Below, one piece after another: positions 34,411 through 47,270 of a stretch of 64,000 bases of DNA (its first letter is position 1; every line of letters starts with the position of its first letter). The notes beneath the pieces were generated by a model, which did no database searches, was not told the origin of the DNA, and saw nothing but the letters and a program-made list of their open reading frames with translations. The position numbers and the translations under genes are program-made. This DNA comes from Pseudomonadota bacterium (GTDB lineage: Bacteria; Desulfobacterota; Binatia; Binatales; Binataceae). The stretch lies in contig JAJPIG010000024.1 of NCBI GenBank assembly GCA_021324855.1, forward strand, positions 62,001 to 126,000, written 5' to 3'.

Positions 34411-34521
34411 ATGAAGAACAAACGCGATATCGGCGAACGCGCGAAAAAGAGCAATTACGGCGTGAGCCGAATGGCGGCGAGTTCCCGGGCTGAATTTATG
34501 CACAATTATAAGACCAAATGA
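34411..34521 (+). CDS. Possible 36-residue basic peptide overlapping the next gene
   Basis: An ATG at 34411 opens a frame for MKNKRDIGERAKKSNYGVSR and 16 further residues, ending in a TGA that overlaps the ATG of the acyl-CoA dehydrogenase by 4 bp. The peptide is strongly basic. There is no clear Shine-Dalgarno site. It might be a leader peptide coupling translation of the downstream gene, or chance. Confidence 0.25.
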   Translation: MKNKRDIGERAKKSNYGVSRMAASSRAEFMHNYKTK

Positions 34522-35618
34522 TCAGCTTCGAGCCCACTGAAGAACAGCAGATGATCCGCGACACTGCGGCGGCCTTCGCGCGCAACGAGCTGCGACCGGC
34601 CGCTCGCGCTGTGGATGAAGGCGAAACGATACCAGATGGCCTGATCGCTGCGGCGTCGAAGCTGGGCCTCGTACGCGCCTGGCTGCCGGAGGAACATGGG
34701 GGTGACGGACTTATGCGATCGGCGCTTACCGGCGCGATGCTCATGGAGGAACTCGCGTATGGCGACCTCGCGCTTGCGGCACACTTAACCGCACCGCGCC
34801 TTTTCGCCTTCCCGATCATCGAGATGGGTACGTCGGCGCAGCGCAGCCGCTATCTCAAACCGTTTGCCAGCGGGAACTTCGTTGCGGGATCTTCCGCGCT
34901 TGTCGAGCCGCGCTACGACTTCGACCTGCAGACGATCGCAACGACAGCCCGTCAAGAGCGCGATGGTTGGATTCTGGATGGCGAGAAGTGCATCGTTCCG
35001 CTCGCCGGCGAGTCCGAATCGATCCTGATTTACGCGAGGCGCGGCGAAGAGGATGGCGTGTCAGGATTCATAGTGCCGCGCGAAGCCGCGGGCGTACTCA
35101 TTTCGGAGCCCGAAAAAAATATGGGGCTCAAGGGTCTTAAGACCTACGAAGTGAAGCTCGCCGGATGCCGAATCGCTGCCGACGCGCAGCTTGGCGGTGA
35201 CGCCGGAATCAATTTCGCCCGGATCGCGAGCCAGATGCGTGTCGCGGCCGTTGCGATGGCTGCGGGGTTGGCGCGGGCTGCTTTCGAGTATGCTCGCGAC
35301 TATGCCAAGGAGCGTCGCGCGTTCGGAGCCCCGATCGCGACGCGGCAGGCGATCGCCTTCATGCTGGCGGAGATGGCCATCGAAGTCGACGCGATGCGAC
35401 TTCTGGCGTGGGAGGCGGCGTGGCATCTCGACCGCGGCGAAGATGCCGCCAAAGAGAGCTATCTGGCGAAACATTACGCGTCCGCTTCGGCGCTCAAGGT
35501 CACCGACAATGCCGTGCAGGTTCTCGGCGGCCACGGCTACATCCGGGAGCATCCGGTCGAGATGTGGCTGCGAAACGCCCGCGGTCTGGCGATTATGGAA
35601 GGGCTTGCGATTGTGTGA
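34518..35618 (+). CDS. Acyl-CoA dehydrogenase family protein, A
   Basis: The 366-residue protein has the ACAD fold: helical N-terminus (TEEQQMIRDTAAAFARNEL), central beta domain (AGSSALVEPRYDF, EKCIVPLAGESESILIYA) and FAD-binding C-terminal helices (ARAAFEYARDYAKERRAFGAPIATRQAIAFMLAEM, VTDNAVQVLGGHGYIREHPVEMWLRNAR). The protein ends at LAIMEGLAIV, so the IMEG glutamate aligns with the catalytic Glu of medium-chain enzymes but the usual C-terminal helix is missing. It is paired with the next gene, 26 bp away. Function as an inactive or atypical partner subunit is possible. Confidence 0.87.
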   Translation: MISFEPTEEQQMIRDTAAAFARNELRPAARAVDEGETIPDGLIAAASKLGLVRAWLPEEHGGDGLMRSALTGAMLMEELAYGDLALAAHLTAPRLFAFPIIEMGTSAQRSRYLKPFASGNFVAGSSALVEPRYDFDLQTIATTARQERDGWILDGEKCIVPLAGESESILIYARRGEEDGVSGFIVPREAAGVLISEPEKNMGLKGLKTYEVKLAGCRIAADAQLGGDAGINFARIASQMRVAAVAMAAGLARAAFEYARDYAKERRAFGAPIATRQAIAFMLAEMAIEVDAMRLLAWEAAWHLDRGEDAAKESYLAKHYASASALKVTDNAVQVLGGHGYIREHPVEMWLRNARGLAIMEGLAIV

Positions 35619-35644
35619 GAAGCGGCGAGGGGTGGAGATCGATC

Positions 35645-36871
35645 ATGATTGACTTCGAATTTGAGCCGCAGGTCATTGAGCGTCTTAAGCTCTACCACAC
35701 GATTGCCGAGCAGATGATGCGACCCATCTCGCGCGAGTACGACGAACGCGAGCATGAGAAGCCTTGGCAGTTTTTCGAGACCATGTGGTCGGCGGCGGGT
35801 GCAGCGGCAGAATTTCAGCCCGGCGGAAGAGAGAAAAAAGAAGGCGCTGGCGTTGGCGCTCGCGCCCGAAATCTTTACACGATCGCGACTACTGAAGAGC
35901 TGACCTGGGGGGATGCGGGCCTGTTTCTTTCGATTCCGAACGCGGGATTGGGCGGCGCGGCGATCGCCGCCGCGGGAACGCCCGAACAAAAGCAGCGCTT
36001 TCTCGGACCGTTTCGCGGCGGCAAGCCCAAATGGGGGGCGATGGCGATAACCGAGCCGGGATGCGGTTCAGATTCGGCGGCGATCACCACGACCGCCGTT
36101 CGTGATGGCGATGAGTGGGTGATCAACGGGACGAAAATTTTCTGCACGTCCGGTCAGATGGCGGCGGAGAAGTCGGAAGGCTTCATCGTGGTATGGGCGA
36201 CGCTTGACAAAAGCGCCGGCCGCGCCGGGATCAAATCGTTTGTGGTCCCACACGGAACGCCCGGGATGACCGTCGTGCGGGTCGAGAACAAGCTTGGTAT
36301 CCGGGCCTCCGACACCGCAATGATCGTGTTCGATAACTGCCGCGTTCCTTTCGATCACATCCTGGGCTCGCCCGAGATCAACCGCGAGCGCGGCTTCAAA
36401 GATGTAATGGCAACCTTCGACGCGACGCGCCCGATCGTCGCGGCGATGGCGATCGGAGTAGGGCGCGCGGCGCTGGATTTCGTTCGCGATTTTCTCAACC
36501 AGCAGAAAATCGCAATTCGCTACGGTGCCGGGCTCTATAGGCTGACGGCGGCCGAGCGCGACTTCATTGAGATGGAAGTGCAGCTTAAGGCAGCTCGCCT
36601 GTTGACCTGGCGCGCAGCCTGGATGCTCGACGCGGGGCGTCAGAACAGTCTCGAAGCATCGATGGCCAAGGCCAAGGCGGGCCTCGCCGTTACACAAATC
36701 ACGCAGAAGGCAATCGAGCTTTTAGGACCGCTCGGCTATTCGCGTCGGATGTTGCTGGAGAAGTGGATGCGCGACGCGAAGATCAACGACATTTTCGAAG
36801 GCACGCAACAGATCAATCTGCTGATCGTCGCGCGACGGATTCTGGGCTATTCAAGCCGGGAACTGAGCTAA
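35645..36871 (+). CDS. Acyl-CoA dehydrogenase family protein, B
   Basis: The 408-residue flavoenzyme oxidises an acyl-CoA at the alpha-beta bond. It shows WGAMAITEPGCGSDSAAI (substrate/FAD loop), NGTKIFCTSGQMA, RPIVAAMAIGVGRAALDFVRDFL and the catalytic glutamate in NDIFEGTQQINLLIVARRILG. The start at 35645 is preferred (GGAG at about 35633); the frame is open upstream into the previous gene. Together with gene A it probably forms a two-subunit or two-step system, as many bacteria have paired ACAD genes. The physiological acyl-CoA is unknown. Confidence 0.92.
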   Translation: MIDFEFEPQVIERLKLYHTIAEQMMRPISREYDEREHEKPWQFFETMWSAAGAAAEFQPGGREKKEGAGVGARARNLYTIATTEELTWGDAGLFLSIPNAGLGGAAIAAAGTPEQKQRFLGPFRGGKPKWGAMAITEPGCGSDSAAITTTAVRDGDEWVINGTKIFCTSGQMAAEKSEGFIVVWATLDKSAGRAGIKSFVVPHGTPGMTVVRVENKLGIRASDTAMIVFDNCRVPFDHILGSPEINRERGFKDVMATFDATRPIVAAMAIGVGRAALDFVRDFLNQQKIAIRYGAGLYRLTAAERDFIEMEVQLKAARLLTWRAAWMLDAGRQNSLEASMAKAKAGLAVTQITQKAIELLGPLGYSRRMLLEKWMRDAKINDIFEGTQQINLLIVARRILGYSSRELS

Positions 36872-39006: not shown

Positions 39007-41298
39007 ATGCTTTCATTGGCGCGGGGCAAAGAGGGCTTCTTTCGCCTGGTCTCCGGATATCAGCCACAGGGCGATCAGCCCGCGGCGATAGATGCACTCG
39101 CGCGCAACGTCGAAGCCGGCGTCGCTCACCAGGTGCTGCTCGGCGTGACCGGCTCGGGAAAAACTTTCACGATGGCGAACGTGATCGCGAAGGTGAACCG
39201 GCCGACGCTGGTGATCGCGCCCAACAAGACCCTCGCCGCGCAGCTCTACAACGAATTCAAAAGCCTTTTTCCCGAAAACGCGGTCCGCTATTTCGTTTCC
39301 TACTACGACTATTACCAGCCCGAAGCTTACGTACCCTCGACCGACACCTATATCGAGAAGGATGCGAGCATCAACGACGAGATCGATAAACTGCGTCATT
39401 CTGCAACCAAAGCGCTGCTCGAACGCAATGATGCGTTGATCGTCGCCTCGGTCTCGTGCATCTACGGCCTCGGCGAGCCGGAAGTCTATTTCGAGATGCT
39501 GGTGTTCGTCGAAGAGGGCCAGACCATCGAGCGCGATCGCGTGCTGCGCAAGCTGGTTGATATTCAGTACCAGCGCAACGAATACGATTTCCATCGCGGG
39601 ACGTTCCGTGTGCGCGGCGACACCATCGAGGTCTTCCCGGCCTACGAAGAGAGCCGCGCGGTGCGGATGGAATTTTTCGGCGATCAGATCGAAGCCCTCT
39701 ACGAGATCGACGCGCTGCGCGGGCAGGTGATTCGCAAGCTGCAGAGCGTCGCGATCTACCCCGCATCGCACTACGTCACCACTTCCGATCGGATGGAGGC
39801 CGCGGTCCGCAACATCAAGACCGAGCTCAGTGAGCGGCTCGATTTCTTCCGCTCGCAGAACCGCCTTCTCGAAGCCCAGCGCCTCGAGCAGCGGACGATG
39901 TACGATCTCGAGCTGCTCGCTGAGATGGGCTTCTGTCCGGGGATCGAGAATTATTCGCGCCATCTGACCGGCCGCGCTCCCGGCCAGCCCCCCCCGACGC
40001 TGCTCGATTACTTCCCCGACAATTACCTGGTCTTCATCGACGAGAGCCACGTCACGATCCCGCAGCTCGGCGGGATGTATCGCGGGGATCGTTCGCGCAA
40101 GGAGACGCTGGTCGAATTCGGTTTCCGGCTGCCGTCGGCGCTCGACAACCGCCCGCTCAATTTCGAGGAATGGGAATCGACGGTCAACCAGGCAATCTAT
40201 GTTTCGGCCACGCCCGGCGATTACGAGCTGCGAAAGTCGGGCGGGCTGGTGATCGAACAGCTCATTCGGCCGACCGGCCTCGTCGATCCGGAGATCGAAG
40301 TGCGCAAGGCCGGCACCCAGGTCGATGATCTGCTTGAAGAGATCCGCAAGCGCGTCGCCGCCAACGAGCGCGTGCTCGTCACCTGCCTCACGAAAAAGAT
40401 GGCCGAGGATCTGACCGACTACTACCAGGATCTCGGCGTGCGCGTCCGCTATCTTCATTCCGACATCGAAACCATCGAACGCGTCGAGATCATCCGCGCG
40501 CTCCGCAAGGGTGAATTCGACGTGCTGGTCGGGATCAACCTGCTCCGCGAAGGACTCGATCTGCCCGAGGTCTCGCTGGTCGCGATTCTCGACGCCGACA
40601 AGGAGGGTTATCTACGTTCGGCGCGCTCGCTGATTCAGACCATCGGTCGCGCGGCGCGCAACCTGAACGGGCGCGTGCTGATGTACGCCGATCAGACGAC
40701 CGACTCGATGAAGCGGGCGATCGAGGAGACCAATCGCCGCCGCGCCCGGCAGCTCGAATTCAATCGCGAGCACGGCATCACGCCCAAGACCATCGTCAAG
40801 GCCATCGATGCGTCCTTGGTCGAGATGTATTCGCCGGAATGGGCGGTGGTTCCGGAAGTCGCGGAGGCGCCGCGGGCACACAAAATCGACGATAACATCC
40901 CGCCGCACGAGCTTGCCGATCACATCAGCGGGTTGCGGCGCGAGATGATGGAAGCGGCGGAAAAACTTGATTACGAACGCGCGGCCGAGCTGCGCGACCG
41001 CATCAAACGGCTTGAACGCAAGGTCTTTGGGTTGGACGCCGAAGTATTCAGGGCTCCGCACCCGCCGCCGGGCAGCGCCGGCACGCGCGCCAGCGAACGC
41101 ACGCGCGGACGACTCGAGCGCCACAAGGTCAAGGACCTGGGCGACACCATTCCGATGGCGAAAAGCCGCGGCCGCAAGGGGGCCGGCGCCGCGACCGGTG
41201 CGGCCGCCGGCGCTGCCGGCTCATCGTCGCGCTCGCGTACGCCGGCAGCCTCCGGCCGTCAGGGACGATTAAAGCTGATTCCTGATCGCCCGGAGTGA
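39007..41298 (+). CDS. uvrB: Excinuclease ABC subunit B
   Basis: UvrB verifies damage and recruits UvrC in excision repair. The Walker A is [16 protein letters not shown], and [22 protein letters not shown] forms the start of the beta-hairpin region. Helicase motifs include [12 protein letters not shown] and [17 protein letters not shown]. The UvrC-binding UVR domain is [32 protein letters not shown]. Length is 763 against about 670 in E. coli, due to a C-terminal tail of roughly 90 Ala/Gly/Arg/Ser-rich residues. [20 protein letters not shown] segment stands out in it. It converges with the amidohydrolase operon, 11 bp from its end. Confidence 0.96.
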
Positions 41299-41309
41299 CG
41301 CGACCAGCC

Positions 41310-42245
41310 TTATTCCAGCCCCAGCAGGCGCGCGCCGTTTGTGTCGAGAATCTTCTTGACGTCGGCCGCCGGAAATCCTGCATCCTCAATGTAAGTCACG
41401 GATCGCAGGTAGTGTTCTTCCACTTGGAACGGATAATCGCTGCCGTAGACCAGACGGTCGGCGCCGAAGGCCGCGTATGCGCATCGGAGCGCCTCCAGCG
41501 AGCCGTGGCCGACGGTATCGTACCAGAGCCGCCTTGCTGTGGCGCTTGCCGGCTCCGCTTCGTCCTTAAGGAAGAGCATGGCGTGCTGATCGATGCGCGG
41601 CAGGACCATCGGCATCACGCCGCCGAAGTGAGGAACGATGATCTTGATTCTCGGATAGCGCACCGGAATCTGCCGCTGGATCAGTTGCATCGTGAACATC
41701 GTATCTTCGAATGGCGCGCCGACCGGCCATGTGAGGCCGTAGTCGCGCACCAGCGGCGAACAGAGCCCGAGACCGGCCGGATGGACGAACACCACCGCGG
41801 CGCGCCGATTGAGCTCCGCCCATAACGGCTCAAACTCGGGGTCGACGGCCGACCGCGTCTGCACCGAGGTTCCGATCGTCATGCCGACCATCTTGAGCCG
41901 ATCGAGCGCGCGCTCGAGCTCGCGCAGCGCGGCATCGACATGCGGCAGCGGTACGGCGGCGAAGGCGCGGAAGCGGCCGGGATGGCGGGCGACGAATTCG
42001 GCGTAGAGATCGTTGGCGGCCTGCGCGCCCTCGATCGCCTTGGCCTCGCTGTCGAAGTAGGGCTGTTGCGATGAGACCGACAGCACCTGCAAATCGACGC
42101 CCGCGCCGTCCATCATTTTGAACCGGGCCTCAAGCTCCTCCGCCGCGTCGCCGCCGAGCGGATAACGCGTGGTCTCACCGCCGAGGCGTTCCATCACGGC
42201 GCGGTAGGCGGCCGGATAGAGATGAGCGTGGACGTCAACGCGCAC
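41310..42245 (-). CDS. Amidohydrolase (ACMSD-like) 1
   Basis: The 311-residue (beta/alpha)8 amidohydrolase belongs to the Amidohydro_2 / aminocarboxymuconate-semialdehyde decarboxylase-like group, which includes nonoxidative decarboxylases. Metal ligands are the DVHAH motif near the start, His in VFVHPAGLG, His in IIVPHFGG, and Asp in VYGSDYPFQVE. It is the last gene of a minus-strand operon with two close paralogues and an SDR. The substrate is unknown; paralogous divergence suggests several related substrates. Confidence 0.88.
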   Translation of the reverse strand: MRVDVHAHLYPAAYRAVMERLGGETTRYPLGGDAAEELEARFKMMDGAGVDLQVLSVSSQQPYFDSEAKAIEGAQAANDLYAEFVARHPGRFRAFAAVPLPHVDAALRELERALDRLKMVGMTIGTSVQTRSAVDPEFEPLWAELNRRAAVVFVHPAGLGLCSPLVRDYGLTWPVGAPFEDTMFTMQLIQRQIPVRYPRIKIIVPHFGGVMPMVLPRIDQHAMLFLKDEAEPASATARRLWYDTVGHGSLEALRCAYAAFGADRLVYGSDYPFQVEEHYLRSVTYIEDAGFPAADVKKILDTNGARLLGLE

Positions 42246-42268
42246 GATCGCCTGCCTCTCGGGCCCTG

Positions 42269-43216
42269 CTAATGCTCAAAGCCCAGCAGCCGCGCAGCGG
42301 TGTGATCGAGAATATTGTCGATGTCAGCCTTCGGCAGGCCCGATTCCTTCACGTACTTCACCGAATTCAGGTACTCGGCGTGAAGCTGATACGGATAGTC
42401 GCTGCCATAAACCAGACGGTCGGCCCCGAGATGTGAAACTGCGCACTTAAGGCCCGCGGTGTTGTTCTGTGCGACCGTGTCATACCAGAGCCGCTTCATC
42501 GTGGCCGTCGGGGCCTCGCTGTTCTGCGCCGCGTACATCGGCTTGGTGGCGTCGAGGCGCGTGAAGAGTGACGGAATCGCGCCGCCGAGATGCGGCACGA
42601 TGATCTTAATCTTAGGGTAGCGCTGCGGAATTTGACGCCGGATCAGATGCAGCACGAACATCGTATCTTCGAACGGCGCGCCGCATACCCACGTAAGCTG
42701 AAATTCGGTCAGCAGCGGGGAACAAACGCCGACGCCGTAGGGATGGACGAACAGCGCGGTCGCGCGCCGGTTCATCTCGGCGTAGAGCGGCTCGAAGGCT
42801 TCCTCAGCCGCGGAGCGCTTGCCGATCGAGGTTCCGAACGTGACGCCGACCATCTTGAGCTGATCGAGCGCGCGCTCCATCTCCTTCATCGCGGCGTCGA
42901 CGTGCGGGAGCGGTAGCGCCGCGAAAGCGCTGAACCGCTTCGGATGGCGTGCGACCAGCTCGGCATAGAGGTCGTTTGCTTCGCGCGCCGCATCGACCGC
43001 GTCGGACTCGCGCTCGTAGTACGGCTGCGTCGATGACACCGACAGCGCCTGCATGTCGACGCCCGCGTCATCCATCATCTTGAGCCGCGCTTCGAGATCC
43101 GCCTTCTCATCGCTCGCGAGCGAGATTCTCCGCACGGCCGAGAGATCCGCGCCGAGCCGTTCCGAGCGTTTGATGTAGGCGTTGGGATAATAATGGGCGT
43201 GAACGTCGATTCGCAT
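42269..43216 (-). CDS. Amidohydrolase (ACMSD-like) 2
   Basis: The 315-residue protein is a close paralogue of its neighbours: MRIDVHAHYYPNAYIKRSERLG, DDAGVDMQALSVSSTQPYYERESDAVDAAREANDLYAELVARHP, LFVHPYGVGVCSPLLTEF, IIVPHLGGAIPSLF and VYGSDYPYQL. All expected metal-binding His and Asp residues are kept. It lies 24 bp after the first paralogue's stop. Loops around TKPMYAAQNSEAPTATMKRLWYDTVAQNN differ from the other copies and may set specificity. Confidence 0.88.
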   Translation of the reverse strand: MRIDVHAHYYPNAYIKRSERLGADLSAVRRISLASDEKADLEARLKMMDDAGVDMQALSVSSTQPYYERESDAVDAAREANDLYAELVARHPKRFSAFAALPLPHVDAAMKEMERALDQLKMVGVTFGTSIGKRSAAEEAFEPLYAEMNRRATALFVHPYGVGVCSPLLTEFQLTWVCGAPFEDTMFVLHLIRRQIPQRYPKIKIIVPHLGGAIPSLFTRLDATKPMYAAQNSEAPTATMKRLWYDTVAQNNTAGLKCAVSHLGADRLVYGSDYPYQLHAEYLNSVKYVKESGLPKADIDNILDHTAARLLGFEH

Positions 43217-43240
43217 TTGTGCCTCCCTGCCTGCGGCCTT

Positions 43241-44188
43241 TTATTTTTCGAGCCCGAGCAACCGGGCTGCATTATGATCGAGAATTTTTTCGGCGTCTCC
43301 CGCCGGCAGGCCCGCCTCGCGAATGTAATTCGCGGCGCGGAGATACGCGTCGCCGCGGTTCAACGGGAAATCGCTGCCGAAGACCAGCCGCTCCGCGCCG
43401 AACACTGCGTGAGCATAGCGCAAAATTTCCGGCCGCCCTGCGACTTGCGTGTCGTACCACATCCGTTTCACGGTCGCGGTCGCGCTTTCCTTATTGTCGG
43501 GTGCGAAAATGCGCATCGTGCGCTCGATCCGATCCAGCACCAGCGGCAGCGCGCCGCCGAAATGCGGCACGATGATCTTAAGCCTGGGATAGCGCTCCAG
43601 GATTCGCCGTTTGATCACGTGCGTTACGAAGGTGGTGTCCTCGAACGGCGCGCCGATCGACCAACTCAGCCCGTAATCCCGGATGAGCGGCGAGCAGACG
43701 CCGAGACCGACGGGATGAACGAAAATCACCGCGCCGCGCCGGTTCAGCTCGGCGTAGAACGGCTCGAACGCCTCGTCGACGGTCGAGCGGTTCATTACGG
43801 AAGTCCCCACGGTTACGCCCGCCATCCCGAGCGTGTCCATCGCGCGCGCAAGTTCTTTCAGCGCCGCGTCGAGGTGCGGCAGCGGCGTGACCGCGAAGGC
43901 TTTGAATCGTGTCGGATATCTCGCGACCAGCTCGGCGTAGAGATCGTTGGCCTCGCGCGCCGCATCGACCGCGTCGGACTCGCGCTCGTAGTACGGATAC
44001 ATCGAGGAGACCGACAGCACCTGCATCTCGACGCCGACCGCCTCCATGTTCGCAAGCCGCGCCTCGATTTCATGCGCAGTTCCGCCGCCAAGCATCGCGG
44101 GCGAGATGTATGAGATATCGCCGCCCATCCGGGCGAAGCGCTCGAACAATGGCGCCGGAAAGTAATGGGCGTGAACGTCGATTCTCAT
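43241..44188 (-). CDS. Amidohydrolase (ACMSD-like) 3
   Basis: The 315-residue third copy begins MRIDVHAHYFPAPLFERFARMG and shows ESDAVDAAREANDLYAELVARYP, IFVHPVGLGVCSPLIRDYGLSW, IIVPHFGGALPLVL and VFGSDFPLNRG. It is the first of the three amidohydrolases in the transcript, about 90 bp downstream of the SDR gene. Its metal centre is intact. The change from SDYP to SDFP and the different C-terminal loop separate it from the other two. Confidence 0.88.
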   Translation of the reverse strand: MRIDVHAHYFPAPLFERFARMGGDISYISPAMLGGGTAHEIEARLANMEAVGVEMQVLSVSSMYPYYERESDAVDAAREANDLYAELVARYPTRFKAFAVTPLPHLDAALKELARAMDTLGMAGVTVGTSVMNRSTVDEAFEPFYAELNRRGAVIFVHPVGLGVCSPLIRDYGLSWSIGAPFEDTTFVTHVIKRRILERYPRLKIIVPHFGGALPLVLDRIERTMRIFAPDNKESATATVKRMWYDTQVAGRPEILRYAHAVFGAERLVFGSDFPLNRGDAYLRAANYIREAGLPAGDAEKILDHNAARLLGLEK

Positions 44189-44275
44189 GGCTCCCCGCGG
44201 ACGATAGCGGCGCTGCGACGCGAATCTAGCCCCGACCTCGCAAATAGTACAGGCCGGCGATTTCGCGTCCTCCGC

Positions 44276-45115
44276 TCATTCTCGTCGATGACGGAACGAT
44301 GGCCCCGAGAAGCCGGCGGGCGGAGCCGGAATCGGCGAGTTCGCGCCGAAAAGATTTCCGCCGAGACTGACGCCGCCGTCGACGACCATCGCCGCGCCGG
44401 TGATCCACTCGGATTCGTCGCTGGCGAGGAACAGGGCCATTGCCGCGATGTCCTCGGGCCGTCCGATGCGCGGGATCTGCTGGACGTTCGCAAAGAACTC
44501 GGCTGCGACCGACGCGCCGCCGGGGACGTGATTGTAGACCAGGGGCGTGTTGATGAGGCCGGGGCAGATGCAGTTGACGCGAATCCGATCCTTGCCGACC
44601 TGGGTTGCCACCGAGCGCGTCAGGTTAATCACGCCGGCCTTGGCGGCCGAGTAGGCATGCGGCGCGCCCGCCATGAAGCCGGCCACCGACGCGGTCGAGA
44701 TAATCGATCCGCCGCCCTGCGTGCGCATCACGGGAATCGCATGCTTCATCCCGAGAAAGACCGAACGCAGCAGGATCGCCATCGTCCGGTCCCAGTTCTC
44801 GACCGAGGTCTCTTCGATCGGTCCGACTGCGCCGCCAAGGCCGGCATTATTGTACATCACGTCGAGCCGCCCGAATTCGCTCGTGGCGCGATCGATCGCC
44901 GCCTTGATCTCAGCCTCATTCTCGACATTCACCGGCTGAAAGACCGCGCGACCGCCCGCGGCGATGCAATCGCGCACCGCCTCTGCGCCGCCGTCGGCGT
45001 TAAGGTCGGCGATTACGAGCGCGGCGCCCTCTGCTGCGAAACGGATCGCGGCGGCGCGTCCGATGCCGCTGGCGGAACCGGTGATGACCGCGACTTTTCC
45101 ATCGAGTCTGCCCAT
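44276..45115 (-). CDS. Short-chain dehydrogenase/reductase
   Basis: The 279-residue classical SDR has the cofactor motif TGSASGIGRAAA, the NNAG segment, the catalytic Ser of STASV and YSAAKAGVINLTRSVATQ (YxxxK), plus the ICPGLINTPL loop and a C-terminal VVDGGVSLGG. An acidic residue after strand 2 (VIADLNADGG) favours NAD(H). The start at 45115 has GGGAG upstream; the frame upstream to 45217 would overlap uvrC and is rejected. It heads the operon with the three amidohydrolases. The carbonyl or hydroxy substrate is unknown. Confidence 0.92.
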   Translation of the reverse strand: MGRLDGKVAVITGSASGIGRAAAIRFAAEGAALVIADLNADGGAEAVRDCIAAGGRAVFQPVNVENEAEIKAAIDRATSEFGRLDVMYNNAGLGGAVGPIEETSVENWDRTMAILLRSVFLGMKHAIPVMRTQGGGSIISTASVAGFMAGAPHAYSAAKAGVINLTRSVATQVGKDRIRVNCICPGLINTPLVYNHVPGGASVAAEFFANVQQIPRIGRPEDIAAMALFLASDESEWITGAAMVVDGGVSLGGNLFGANSPIPAPPAGFSGPSFRHRRE

Positions 45116-45173
45116 GCTGTGCTCCCGTCCGGGCGTCCCCGGACTAATCACTGTGATAGTATGATCGACGGTC

Positions 45174-47270
45174 ATGGCCAACCAGGATTCGCCGCGCGAT
45201 GAACAGGCGCCGATCATCGAGCGTCCGTTCCACTCGCTGGTGAGCTATTCGCCGGCGACGCCTGAATCTACCGGCGGCGACGAGCCGGAGACGGTCTCCG
45301 CCGGGCACCCGCTGGCGAAGAAGCTCGCCGCCGTCCCCGTCGAGCCGGGCGTCTATCTGCTCCGCGATCGGCATGGGAAAGTACTTTACGTCGGCAAAGC
45401 CAAGTCGCTGCGCCCGCGGGTGCGCGCCTATTTCCGCGAGCGCGGCGACGAGCGCTTCCAGGTGCGCTTTCTGATGAAGCGGGTGCGCGACTTCGACACG
45501 CTGGTCGCGGCCTCCGAGAAGGAAGCGCTGATTCTCGAGAACAACCTGATCAAGCAATACAAGCCGCGCTACAACATCCGGCTCAAGGACGACAAATCGT
45601 ATCTGAGCGCGAAGATCACGAACCATCCGTGGCCGCGCATTACGGTGACGCGCAAGATCGTGAAGGACGGCGGGCGCTACTTCGGACCGTTCGGATCGGC
45701 CGACGGCCTGCGCGAAACGATCGACGTCATCCGCAAGGTCTTTCCACTGCGCACCTGCAGCGACACAGTGTTCCGCAATCGCGCGCGCCCGTGCCTCGAA
45801 TATCAGATCAAACGCTGCATGGGGCCGTGCTGTCTACCGGTGGATCGCGCGGAATATGAGCGTCATCTCCGCGCCGCGCAGATGCTGCTCGAAGGCAGGA
45901 ACCTCGAGCTGCTGAAGGAGATGCGCGAGCGGATGAAGTCGCATGCCGAGCGGCTCGAGTTCGAAGAAGCCGCCCGCATCCGCGATCGCGTGCGCGCGAT
46001 CGAGAAGACCGTCGAGCGCCAGACCGTGCTGCATCACTGGGGCATCGATCAGGACGTCTTCGGGCTCTATCGCGAGGGCGGATTCATCGAGGCGATCGTG
46101 CTGATGATCCGCGGCGGCAAGCTCACCAGCGCGCAAAGCTGGAGCTTCGAGGATCTCGAGTTCGCCGATCAGGATGTGCTCGCGGATCTGCTGACGCAGT
46201 TTTACTCGGGCGCGCGGTTTATTCCCGATGAAGTCATTTTGCCGACCGCGATCGAGGACGCCGACGTCCGCGCGGAGCTTCTGACCGACAAACGCGGCAA
46301 GAAAGTAGAGTTGATCGTGCCGCAGCGCGGCGAAAAACTCCGGCTGCTCGAAATGGCGCAGGACAATGCGCGCCAGTCGTTCCACTCGCGTCGCGACAGC
46401 GAATCCACGCGCGAGCGGATGCTCGAGGAGCTCCGCCGCAGGCTGCATTTGCGCAACACGCCGAAGCGTATCGAATGTTACGACATCTCGAATTTGCAGG
46501 GCTCGATGGTCGTCGGGTCGCAGGTCACGTTCGACGAGGGCGAGCCGGAGAAGAATCTTTACCGGCGCTACCGGATTCGCACGGTCGAGGGTCAGGACGA
46601 TTTCGCGAGTCTCTTCGAAGTCCTGCGCCGGCGGCTGGCGCGCGCGCAGCGCGATGGCGAGTATCCGGACCTGTGGGTGATCGACGGCGGCAAGGGCCAA
46701 CTTAATGTAGCGCTTGAAGTATTGCGCGAGACCGGCGCCCGCGATCAGATCGAGGTCGTCTCGCTCGCCAAGCAGCACGTGCTCAATCCGGCCCGTGAGC
46801 GCGAGGTGGTGAAGTCCGAGGAGCGGGTCTTTCTTCCGAATCGCAAGGACCCGATCGTGCTGCCGAAAAACTCGACCGCGTTGTTCCTGCTGGTCCGCAT
46901 CCGCGATGAAGCCCATCGCTTCGCAATCACCTACAATCGCGAGCTCCGGCGGCGGGCGCGGATGCGCTCGGTGCTCGACGACATCGAGGGCATCGGACCG
47001 GTGCGCCGCCGCGCATTGCTACGTCATTTCGGCAGCCTGCGCAGAATCCGGGAGGCGAGCGTGGATGAGATCTCCGCCGTGAAGGGGTTCAATGCGGACA
47101 TCGCGGCTGCGATTCGCCGCCATCTCGACGGCATCGCGACACTGCTCGACCGCGAGGAAGCCGCGGAATCGTCGCTGGTGAACGAGGCGCCGATGCCGGC
47201 TGAACCGCTCGCGCCCCATCCGGATGTTTCGGCCGACGGGAACGCGCCGCAAGAACCCTCCGCATCGTAG
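45174..47270 (+). CDS. uvrC: Excinuclease ABC subunit C
   Basis: UvrC makes both incisions in excision repair. The 698-residue protein has an N-terminal GIY-YIG nuclease (VPVEPGVYLLRDRHGKVLYVGKAKSL), a central UVR domain for UvrB binding (MKSHAERLEFEEAARIRDRVRAIEK), the C-terminal RNase H-like nuclease (ECYDISNLQGSMVVGSQVTFDEGEP) and helix-hairpin-helix motifs (LDDIEGIGPVRRRALLRHFGS, EISAVKGFNADIAAAI). The N- and C-terminal tails are extended by about 50 and 40 residues relative to E. coli. It diverges from the SDR gene. Confidence 0.97.
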   Translation: MANQDSPRDEQAPIIERPFHSLVSYSPATPESTGGDEPETVSAGHPLAKKLAAVPVEPGVYLLRDRHGKVLYVGKAKSLRPRVRAYFRERGDERFQVRFLMKRVRDFDTLVAASEKEALILENNLIKQYKPRYNIRLKDDKSYLSAKITNHPWPRITVTRKIVKDGGRYFGPFGSADGLRETIDVIRKVFPLRTCSDTVFRNRARPCLEYQIKRCMGPCCLPVDRAEYERHLRAAQMLLEGRNLELLKEMRERMKSHAERLEFEEAARIRDRVRAIEKTVERQTVLHHWGIDQDVFGLYREGGFIEAIVLMIRGGKLTSAQSWSFEDLEFADQDVLADLLTQFYSGARFIPDEVILPTAIEDADVRAELLTDKRGKKVELIVPQRGEKLRLLEMAQDNARQSFHSRRDSESTRERMLEELRRRLHLRNTPKRIECYDISNLQGSMVVGSQVTFDEGEPEKNLYRRYRIRTVEGQDDFASLFEVLRRRLARAQRDGEYPDLWVIDGGKGQLNVALEVLRETGARDQIEVVSLAKQHVLNPAREREVVKSEERVFLPNRKDPIVLPKNSTALFLLVRIRDEAHRFAITYNRELRRRARMRSVLDDIEGIGPVRRRALLRHFGSLRRIREASVDEISAVKGFNADIAAAIRRHLDGIATLLDREEAAESSLVNEAPMPAEPLAPHPDVSADGNAPQEPSAS

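Follow-up and report, generated by a model that had tools for sequence, protein, structure and literature searches.

Why would a bacterial genome keep three paralogous amidohydrolase genes in tandem behind a gene for a short-chain dehydrogenase/reductase (SDR), and do the four serve one pathway? The question is raised by a stretch of 64,000 nucleotides (C10:62001-126000, hereafter the window) on a 139-kb contig of a 3.75-Mb genome in 38 contigs (G000). Four minus-strand genes, the SDR gene followed by c1, c2, and c3, lie here between two genes that we take, from their sequences, to be uvrB and uvrC. An earlier note on this DNA had described the four as an operon of an SDR and three ACMSD-like amidohydrolases, with parallel specificities or a multi-step route. 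In our view, c1, c2, and c3 are probably functional metal-dependent decarboxylases of the cog2159 type that arose by ancient duplication, diverged in their pockets, and were placed behind a resident SDR. Each of the four reading frames is open over its full length; the main features are as follows, D+3 denoting the residue three past the catalytic Asp:

43241..44188, minus strand: c1 (P0001), cog2159/PF04909 decarboxylase-like paralogue of 315 aa; PF04909 at 3e-39; Leu at D+3 (L276)
42269..43216, minus strand: c2 (P0002), paralogue of 315 aa; PF04909 at 1.9e-35; Tyr at D+3 (Y276); Arg30 in loop 1
41310..42245, minus strand: c3 (P0003), paralogue of 311 aa with a GTG start; PF04909 at 4.3e-38; Phe at D+3 (F273)
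43916..43999 and 42944-43027, minus strand: tract nearly identical between c1 codons 64-91 and c2 codons 64-91, likely gene conversion
44276..45115, minus strand: SDR oxidoreductase (P0004) of 279 aa; PF13561 at 3.6e-66 (PF13561/PF00106)

PF04909 spans the whole length of c1, c2, and c3 with 123.5-136 bits against a curated cut-off of 26.4, so that the coordinates, the frames, and the family all bear out the earlier description of three tandem amidohydrolases of 311-315 residues behind an SDR. The same holds for the claim that all metal ligands are intact: H6, H8, H158, and D273 (HxH, His, and Asp; c1 numbering for metal and catalytic sites throughout) are present in 3/3 copies. H209 and R220, the carboxylate-binding and catalytic residues, are also kept in each copy, with a His-to-Arg spacing of 11 (209 to 220) that is the same as in the decarboxylases treated in the excerpts of PMC6305744. 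The carboxylate sets given there are His251/Arg262/Asp323 in iso-orotate decarboxylase (IDCase), His218/Arg229/Asp287 in gamma-resorcylate decarboxylase (gamma-RSD), and His241/Arg252/Asp314 in the 5-carboxyvanillate decarboxylase LigW, and the corresponding ACMSD residues are His9, His11, His177, Asp294, His228, and Arg239 (excerpts of PMC11650718). All six residues are invariant in 13/13 aligned full-length subfamily members, a contig-end fragment that makes up the 14th row being excluded from this count. A Trp matching Trp191 of human ACMSD, as located by the alignment of c1 with the human protein in the numbering of PMC11650718, is found in 11 of the 13, with Phe in the protein of genome G126 and Val in that of Rhodococcus.

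Among proteins in the PDB, c1 scored 106.1 bits with human ACMSD, 88.6 with 5-carboxyvanillate decarboxylase, and 79.4 with gamma-RSD; the corresponding scores were 116.1, 78.3, and 79.8 for c2, and 88.5, 89.5, and 96.2 for c3. The top PDB hit is thus human ACMSD for c1 and c2 and gamma-RSD for c3. LigJ reached 48.5, 51.1, and 44.6 bits with c1, c2, and c3, whereas LigY reached 26.8 with c1 and 27.2 with c2 and was absent from the matches of c3. By these scores, c1 and c2 appear to lean to human ACMSD and c3 to gamma-RSD, although c3 is not clearly nearer gamma-RSD (96.2 vs 89.5), while c1 and c2 score ACMSD higher. The earlier label "ACMSD-like" hence suits c1 (106 bits, with 89 for the next characterised family) and c2 (116 bits, with 80), and it suits c3 less well (gamma-RSD 96.2 vs ACMSD 88.5). 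Fold comparisons cover c3 only, for which a structure model was built from five sequences (mean pLDDT 76.7, pTM 0.81, residues 157-179 below a pLDDT of 50). The closest folds are of the cog2159 type, namely 2f6k (Z 33.4), gamma-RSD (32.9), ACMSD (32.3), and LigW (32.0), followed by IDCase (29.3-30.1), salicylate decarboxylase (29.8), LigY (29.2-29.6), and LigJ (27.4-28.0). Taken together, sequence, fold, and residues place c1-c3 among the nonhydrolytic decarboxylases of the cog2159 type. The ring-opening enzyme KpiC, a Pfam01979 protein (PMC7356986), was set aside as a member of another Pfam family.

The copies are old. Each has a counterpart in G001, a second species of the same genus (genome rated 93% complete and 5% contaminated), with identities of 75.6% over 164 aa for c1, 76.8% for c2, and 73.6% for c3. 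The c2 and c3 orthologues (L031 4656-5600 and L031 5634-6569) are direct neighbours and follow uvrC and a like SDR, whose strand they share. Between this SDR and c2 lies a 212-aa open reading frame (ORF; L031 3831-4469) with a signal peptide by eye and no Pfam match. The c1 orthologue, a contig-end fragment, starts on another contig beside a TauE-like permease gene and another PF04909 gene. Within the window, pairwise identities are 56.5% (c1-c2), 58.2% (c1-c3), and 58.5% (c2-c3). Ratios of nonsynonymous to synonymous substitution (dN/dS) between orthologues are 0.14 for c1 (164 codons), 0.13 for c2, 0.17 for c3, and 0.09 for the SDR, with uvrC (0.14) as the yardstick; c1, c2, and c3 are under purifying selection. 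Because the copies have separate orthologues in G001 and low dN/dS, the gene must have been triplicated before the two species separated, and the copies have been retained. A recent duplication is ruled out by the identities of 56.5-58.5% and the separate orthologues, and decay into pseudogenes by the open frames, the intact residues, and dN/dS of 0.13-0.17. Neither of the two findings that would have refuted the earlier note, a loss of metal ligands or recent identical duplicates, is observed.

Outside the window, the genome has 30 PF04909 matches, 23 of which were included in a 45-row tree (those left out are L027-L030 and three more rows). In this tree the 14 rows of the subfamily group together, in a starred clade that contains none of these 23 proteins, and each orthologue pair is starred. 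There c1 joins c3 (98/92, starred), and c2 joins a protein of genome G002, G002_a (90/83, not starred). A clade of c1-c3 and their orthologues (six rows, without G002_a) is not rejected (p-AU 0.357), one that unites c2 with c3 to the exclusion of c1 is weakly disfavoured (p-AU 0.040), and several deeper forks of a 17-row tree are unsupported either way. Synonymous distances are smaller between paralogues (0.83-1.04) than between orthologues (1.11-1.20), which makes synonymous divergence of little use for dating the copies; shared codon use and gene conversion could be the causes. Codons 64-91 of c1 and c2 are 93% identical in amino acids and 88% in nucleotides, compared with 71% amino acid identity of each to its own orthologue, and include an exact run of 44 bp; a permutation test on the run of identical codons gave p 0.012. 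Gene conversion between c1 and c2 in the window's lineage is the likely cause, on what is a moderate signal.

The three copies differ where a substrate would be expected to bind. At D+3, c1 has Leu, c2 Tyr, and c3 Phe; in G001, where c1 is a fragment and the comparison is confined to the other two copies, c2 and c3 have the same states. The excerpts of PMC6305744 describe an aromatic residue at D+3 that lies against the ring of the substrate: Phe326 in IDCase, Phe290 in gamma-RSD, and Tyr317 in LigW. Loop 1 (residues 23-39) contains SYISPA in c1 and its G001 fragment, Arg30 in both c2 orthologues, and Tyr28-Pro-Leu in both c3 orthologues; c1 has no Arg in this loop and c3 an unconserved one, while R30 of c2 is conserved. 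R20, just ahead of the loop, is present in all three copies and could substitute for Arg51 of ACMSD (human Arg47) as binder of a second carboxylate. Some pocket positions thus differ between copies yet agree in the comparable orthologues (two species; c1 over 164 residues). Because likely pocket positions differ (loop 1, the residue after beta-strand 2, and the ring-stacking D+3 residue), the copies probably act on related but different acids.

How such enzymes might work can be sketched from their characterised relatives. Each protein would hold one divalent metal through H6, H8, H158, and D273, and H209 and R220 would handle the substrate carboxylate, the Arg matching R220 coming from the neighbouring subunit in ACMSD. 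The reaction would be a nonoxidative release of CO2, with either a hydroxy-aromatic acid or a carboxylated ring-fission product as substrate. Two versions are conceivable. In calculations on IDCase, the metal coordinates the carboxylate and an adjacent oxygen of the substrate, the carboxylate is held in place by His, Arg, and Asp, and CO2 departs after Asp has protonated the ring carbon (excerpts of PMC6305744); c3, with Phe at D+3, may follow this course, with D273 in the role of the proton-passing Asp. For ACMSD, the substrate is thought to stay off the metal, the metal-bound water points at the leaving carboxylate, and Arg51 and Arg239 bind the two carboxylates (excerpts of PMC11650718); c2 may follow this second course in view of Arg30 and the best ACMSD score. 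For the same two reasons, c2 would be the likeliest copy for a dicarboxylate ring-fission product. The likeliest for a hydroxybenzoate would be c3. The fold also serves meta-cleavage products, because OpaD, 30% identical to the ACMS decarboxylase NbaD, is a CHMS decarboxylase (excerpts of PMC6362003). The ring-hydroxylating and ring-cleaving enzymes that would supply the acids would have their genes in other parts of the genome. A bolder and rather unlikely extension would make c1-c3 three separately tuned decarboxylases, selected apart yet sharing one converted segment, that let a small genome with 60 Rieske matches funnel several aromatic or ring-fission acids into a single decarboxylation step, with substrates new for the fold; Leu, Tyr, and Phe would lie against the ring, the first loops would differ, and one copy would take a carboxymuconate-type and another a hydroxybenzoate-type acid.

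The subfamily is found in 4/148 genomes of the class at E <= 1e-50 (three members in the window genome, three including the fragment in G001, four in G002, and one in G126) and in 1/395 genomes drawn across the phylum at 1e-45, the window's own; G001, G002, and G126 are not among the matches of the phylum sample and so were not drawn. Near kin occur in other phyla, because matches were found on plasmids of Streptomyces (49.5% identity), Rhodococcus (41.0%), and Deinococcus (38.6%), the best among 316 plasmid records with any match. A short-pattern scan of genome contigs gave one relative, but the scan is no measure of rarity. G002_b and G002_d lie about 16 kb apart on one contig, and between or beside them are two flavin monooxygenases that resemble HsaA (at 323.5 and 304.8 bits they stay under its cut-off of 450), a HpaD/C23O-like extradiol protein closest to HpaD (118.7 bits; cut-off 321.4), VOC, luciferase-like (LLM), and MFS proteins, and S15 hydrolases; a Rieske/LigXa_C protein is encoded near G002_a. 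The Deinococcus relative is accompanied by a VOC protein, a "ring-cleaving dioxygenase", an LLM protein, and an MFS protein, that of Streptomyces by FAD_binding_3, AMP-binding, acyl-CoA-synthetase-like, and MDMPI proteins, and that of Rhodococcus by FAH and ALDH. None of the tested neighbours of the relatives reached an equivalog cut-off, and the aromatic-catabolic context of some relatives is a suggestive hint to function. The parallel specificity proposed earlier gains to this extent, as the paralogues are intact and old enough for different specificities and some relatives stand in aromatic catabolic sets.

The window genome itself, the one genome in which such genes were counted, has a dense aromatic-oxidation repertoire, with 60 Rieske, 41 VOC, 6 LigB, and 33 PF04909 matches in 3.75 Mb; c1-c3 are an ordinary catabolic gene family in a genome rich in aromatic-oxidation genes rather than a new pathway. 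A role as ACMSD in a kynurenine-type route was rejected, as no 3-HAO match lies near the c1-c3 locus and the genome's two (PF06052) are both on contig C15, one of them beside Rieske alpha/beta genes. The PF04909 protein nearest to the 3-HAO genes, about 12.6 kb from the second, scored 131.5 bits with 5-carboxyvanillate decarboxylase and 87.8 with ACMSD. Also on C15, the segment L109 8830-11726 (G000:C15) combines a 3-HAO gene, Rieske alpha and beta subunits, and a DOPA 4,5-dioxygenase-family gene, and is a possible ring-cleavage cluster. As a separate observation, three genomes of one genus (G003, G017, and G028) gave 112-141 first-look P0003-like amidohydrolase candidates each, high among the family members searched.

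Several points weigh against the reading of c1-c3 as diverged decarboxylases of aromatic or ring-fission acids. Substrate, metal, and activity are predicted by analogy. No more than 3 positions are constant within each orthologue pair and distinct in all three pairs, and the pocket differences come from two species (164 residues for c1). The aromatic context of the relatives is seen in genomes that are rich in such genes anyway; G002_c adjoins genes that we take to be methionine-sulfoxide-reductase-like and efflux-like, with no aromatic setting, and the G126 relative adjoins a cupin protein only. None of the genome's 60 Rieske, 6 LigB, and 41 VOC matches is on the window's 139-kb contig, which also speaks against the local multi-step route that the earlier note had entertained. 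Structural identities to the c3 model are 17-28%, part of the model is of low confidence, and the modelled fold does not separate decarboxylase from hydrolase, LigY being tied with the lower-scoring decarboxylases.

This last point bears on the rival that survives best, namely that c1-c3, like LigY, hydrolyse C-C or C-N bonds in ring-fission products; the metal site would then activate water, and extradiol dioxygenases would supply the substrate. We regard this as unlikely, though it deserves to be kept in mind: LigY has the same fold (Z 29.6), and extradiol-type proteins are encoded beside the relatives in G002 and Deinococcus. In contrast, sequence scores favour decarboxylases by a wide gap (c1, ACMSD 106.1 vs LigY 26.8 bits; c2, 116.1 vs 27.2), the decarboxylase His/Arg/Asp set is complete in all three copies, and the alpha/beta hydrolases beside some relatives could carry out a hydrolytic step.

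If c1-c3 are decarboxylases, does the SDR belong to their pathway? The gaps calculated from the coordinates are 87 bp (SDR-c1), 24 bp (c1-c2), and 23 bp (c2-c3), and with the shared strand they suggest that the SDR gene and c1-c3 may be co-transcribed. A consensus scan of the locus found no sigma-70-like site (0.8 expected) and 2 terminator-like sites, against 2.8 expected by chance. The flanking genes are:

39007..41298, plus strand: uvrB, convergent with c3 at a spacing of 11 bp; 79.7% identical to an ORF of L119, where it is likewise near uvrC
45174..47270, plus strand: uvrC, divergent from the SDR gene at a spacing of 58 bp; one strong match (E <= 1e-60) in each of 38/41 family genomes

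Two adjacent acyl-CoA dehydrogenase genes were also observed at window positions 34518-36871, about 2-4.5 kb before uvrB.

The SDR carries the motifs TGSASGIG at 12, NNAG at 89, and YSAAK at 155. Among the 25 best of 229 NCBIfam families it reached no equivalog cut-off, while it passes the broad subfamily PRK07231 (238.7 bits; cut-off 215). Of the 38 family genomes with uvrC, at least 24, from 10/16 genera, have a P0004-like SDR gene that diverges from uvrC and lies no more than 1.3 kb upstream of it; the count is a lower bound, based on 59 family rows with P0004-like matches at E <= 1e-65 and 16 candidates per genome. Of the remaining genomes, 3 have uvrC at a contig edge and 11 show no adjacent SDR among the matches listed, yet for G029, one of the 11, another contig shows SDRs beside a uvrC fragment. 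The SDR at uvrC occurs singly or in a tandem array of two or three (window 44276-47270 and L116-L127), and uvrB follows directly in G007 and after two other genes in G019. Among the genera with an SDR at this site, the amidohydrolases are present only in that of the window, and 9 further genera are without them.

The unit of an SDR and three amidohydrolases is composite, because a like SDR holds the uvrC site in at least 24/38 genomes, the amidohydrolases occur in 4/148, and c1 is elsewhere in G001. In the simplest history, an SDR array stood at uvrC first, and the amidohydrolase genes were added behind its last surviving SDR. Possibly, the window SDR was instead replaced from another locus: in a small tree it groups with the second SDR of the array in G023 (84/73, not starred), and its best matches in other genera, at 73% identity, are SDRs that do not stand at uvrC. 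Insertion of the amidohydrolase genes behind an SDR kind already resident at uvrC would allow co-transcription with it, a shared pathway being without support. That the four genes form one dedicated pathway operon, in which the SDR oxidises an alcohol or a dihydrodiol and the amidohydrolases act in successive steps, is therefore very improbable in our estimation. In its favour are the common strand, the gaps of 87, 24, and 23 bp, and the fact that both species of the genus have the SDR close to c2 and c3 and in the same orientation. Nevertheless, the like SDR stands at uvrC without these amidohydrolases in the 9 further genera, which argues against placing the SDR in the same pathway, G001 has the 212-aa ORF between SDR and c2 and its c1 elsewhere, and the contig is devoid of Rieske, LigB, or VOC matches. 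The slimmest chance is left to mixed dimers or a heteromeric enzyme with paralogues completing each other's sites, since, although the active form of ACMSD is a dimer in which the partner subunit contributes Arg239 (excerpts of PMC11650718) and c2 and c3 are adjacent in both species, each copy has its own R220 and all ligands so that homodimers suffice, c1 is apart from c2 and c3 in G001, and G126 has a single match.

Read as three diverged decarboxylases, c1-c3 offer a single scaffold with three naturally occurring pockets, and for two of the copies full orthologues exist; they are candidates for screening in (de)carboxylation biocatalysis and could help to place an unnamed PF04909 subfamily. 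The locus also counsels caution in reading an SDR and its neighbouring enzyme genes as a pathway, as this SDR kind holds the site in genera without the enzymes. A tandem triple of such decarboxylase-like genes was not met in our literature search, which is no claim of its absence from print.

Compared with known systems, c1-c3 share with ACMSD (PDB 2wm1, 2hbv) and the OpaD-type CHMS decarboxylase the metal site of HxH, His, and Asp as well as equivalents of His228, Arg239, and Trp194/191. They differ from ACMSD in that structural identity is about 25%, as measured on the c3 model only, and that the counterpart of the loop bearing Arg51/47 is shorter and unaligned, phmmer leaving human residues 1-54 unaligned for c1; with these differences, a reading as ACMSD proper is not supported for any copy. 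Gamma-RSD has Glu in place of the first metal His. This 2,6-dihydroxybenzoate decarboxylase (PDB 2dvt, 4qro) resembles the three copies in its His/Arg/Asp set, and c3 in particular by Phe at D+3; its identity to c3 is only 28%, and c1 and c2 differ at D+3 (Leu, Tyr) and score 78-80 bits. LigW and IDCase have the same fold (Z 32.0 and 30.1) and the same carboxylate-binding set, but only 23-27% identity. The amidohydrolase 2 proteins 2f6k and 3ij6, the latter from Lactobacillus, both align from query residue 2, and 2f6k, at 24% identity, gives the top fold score for c3 (Z 33.4); the titles of both entries name no function.

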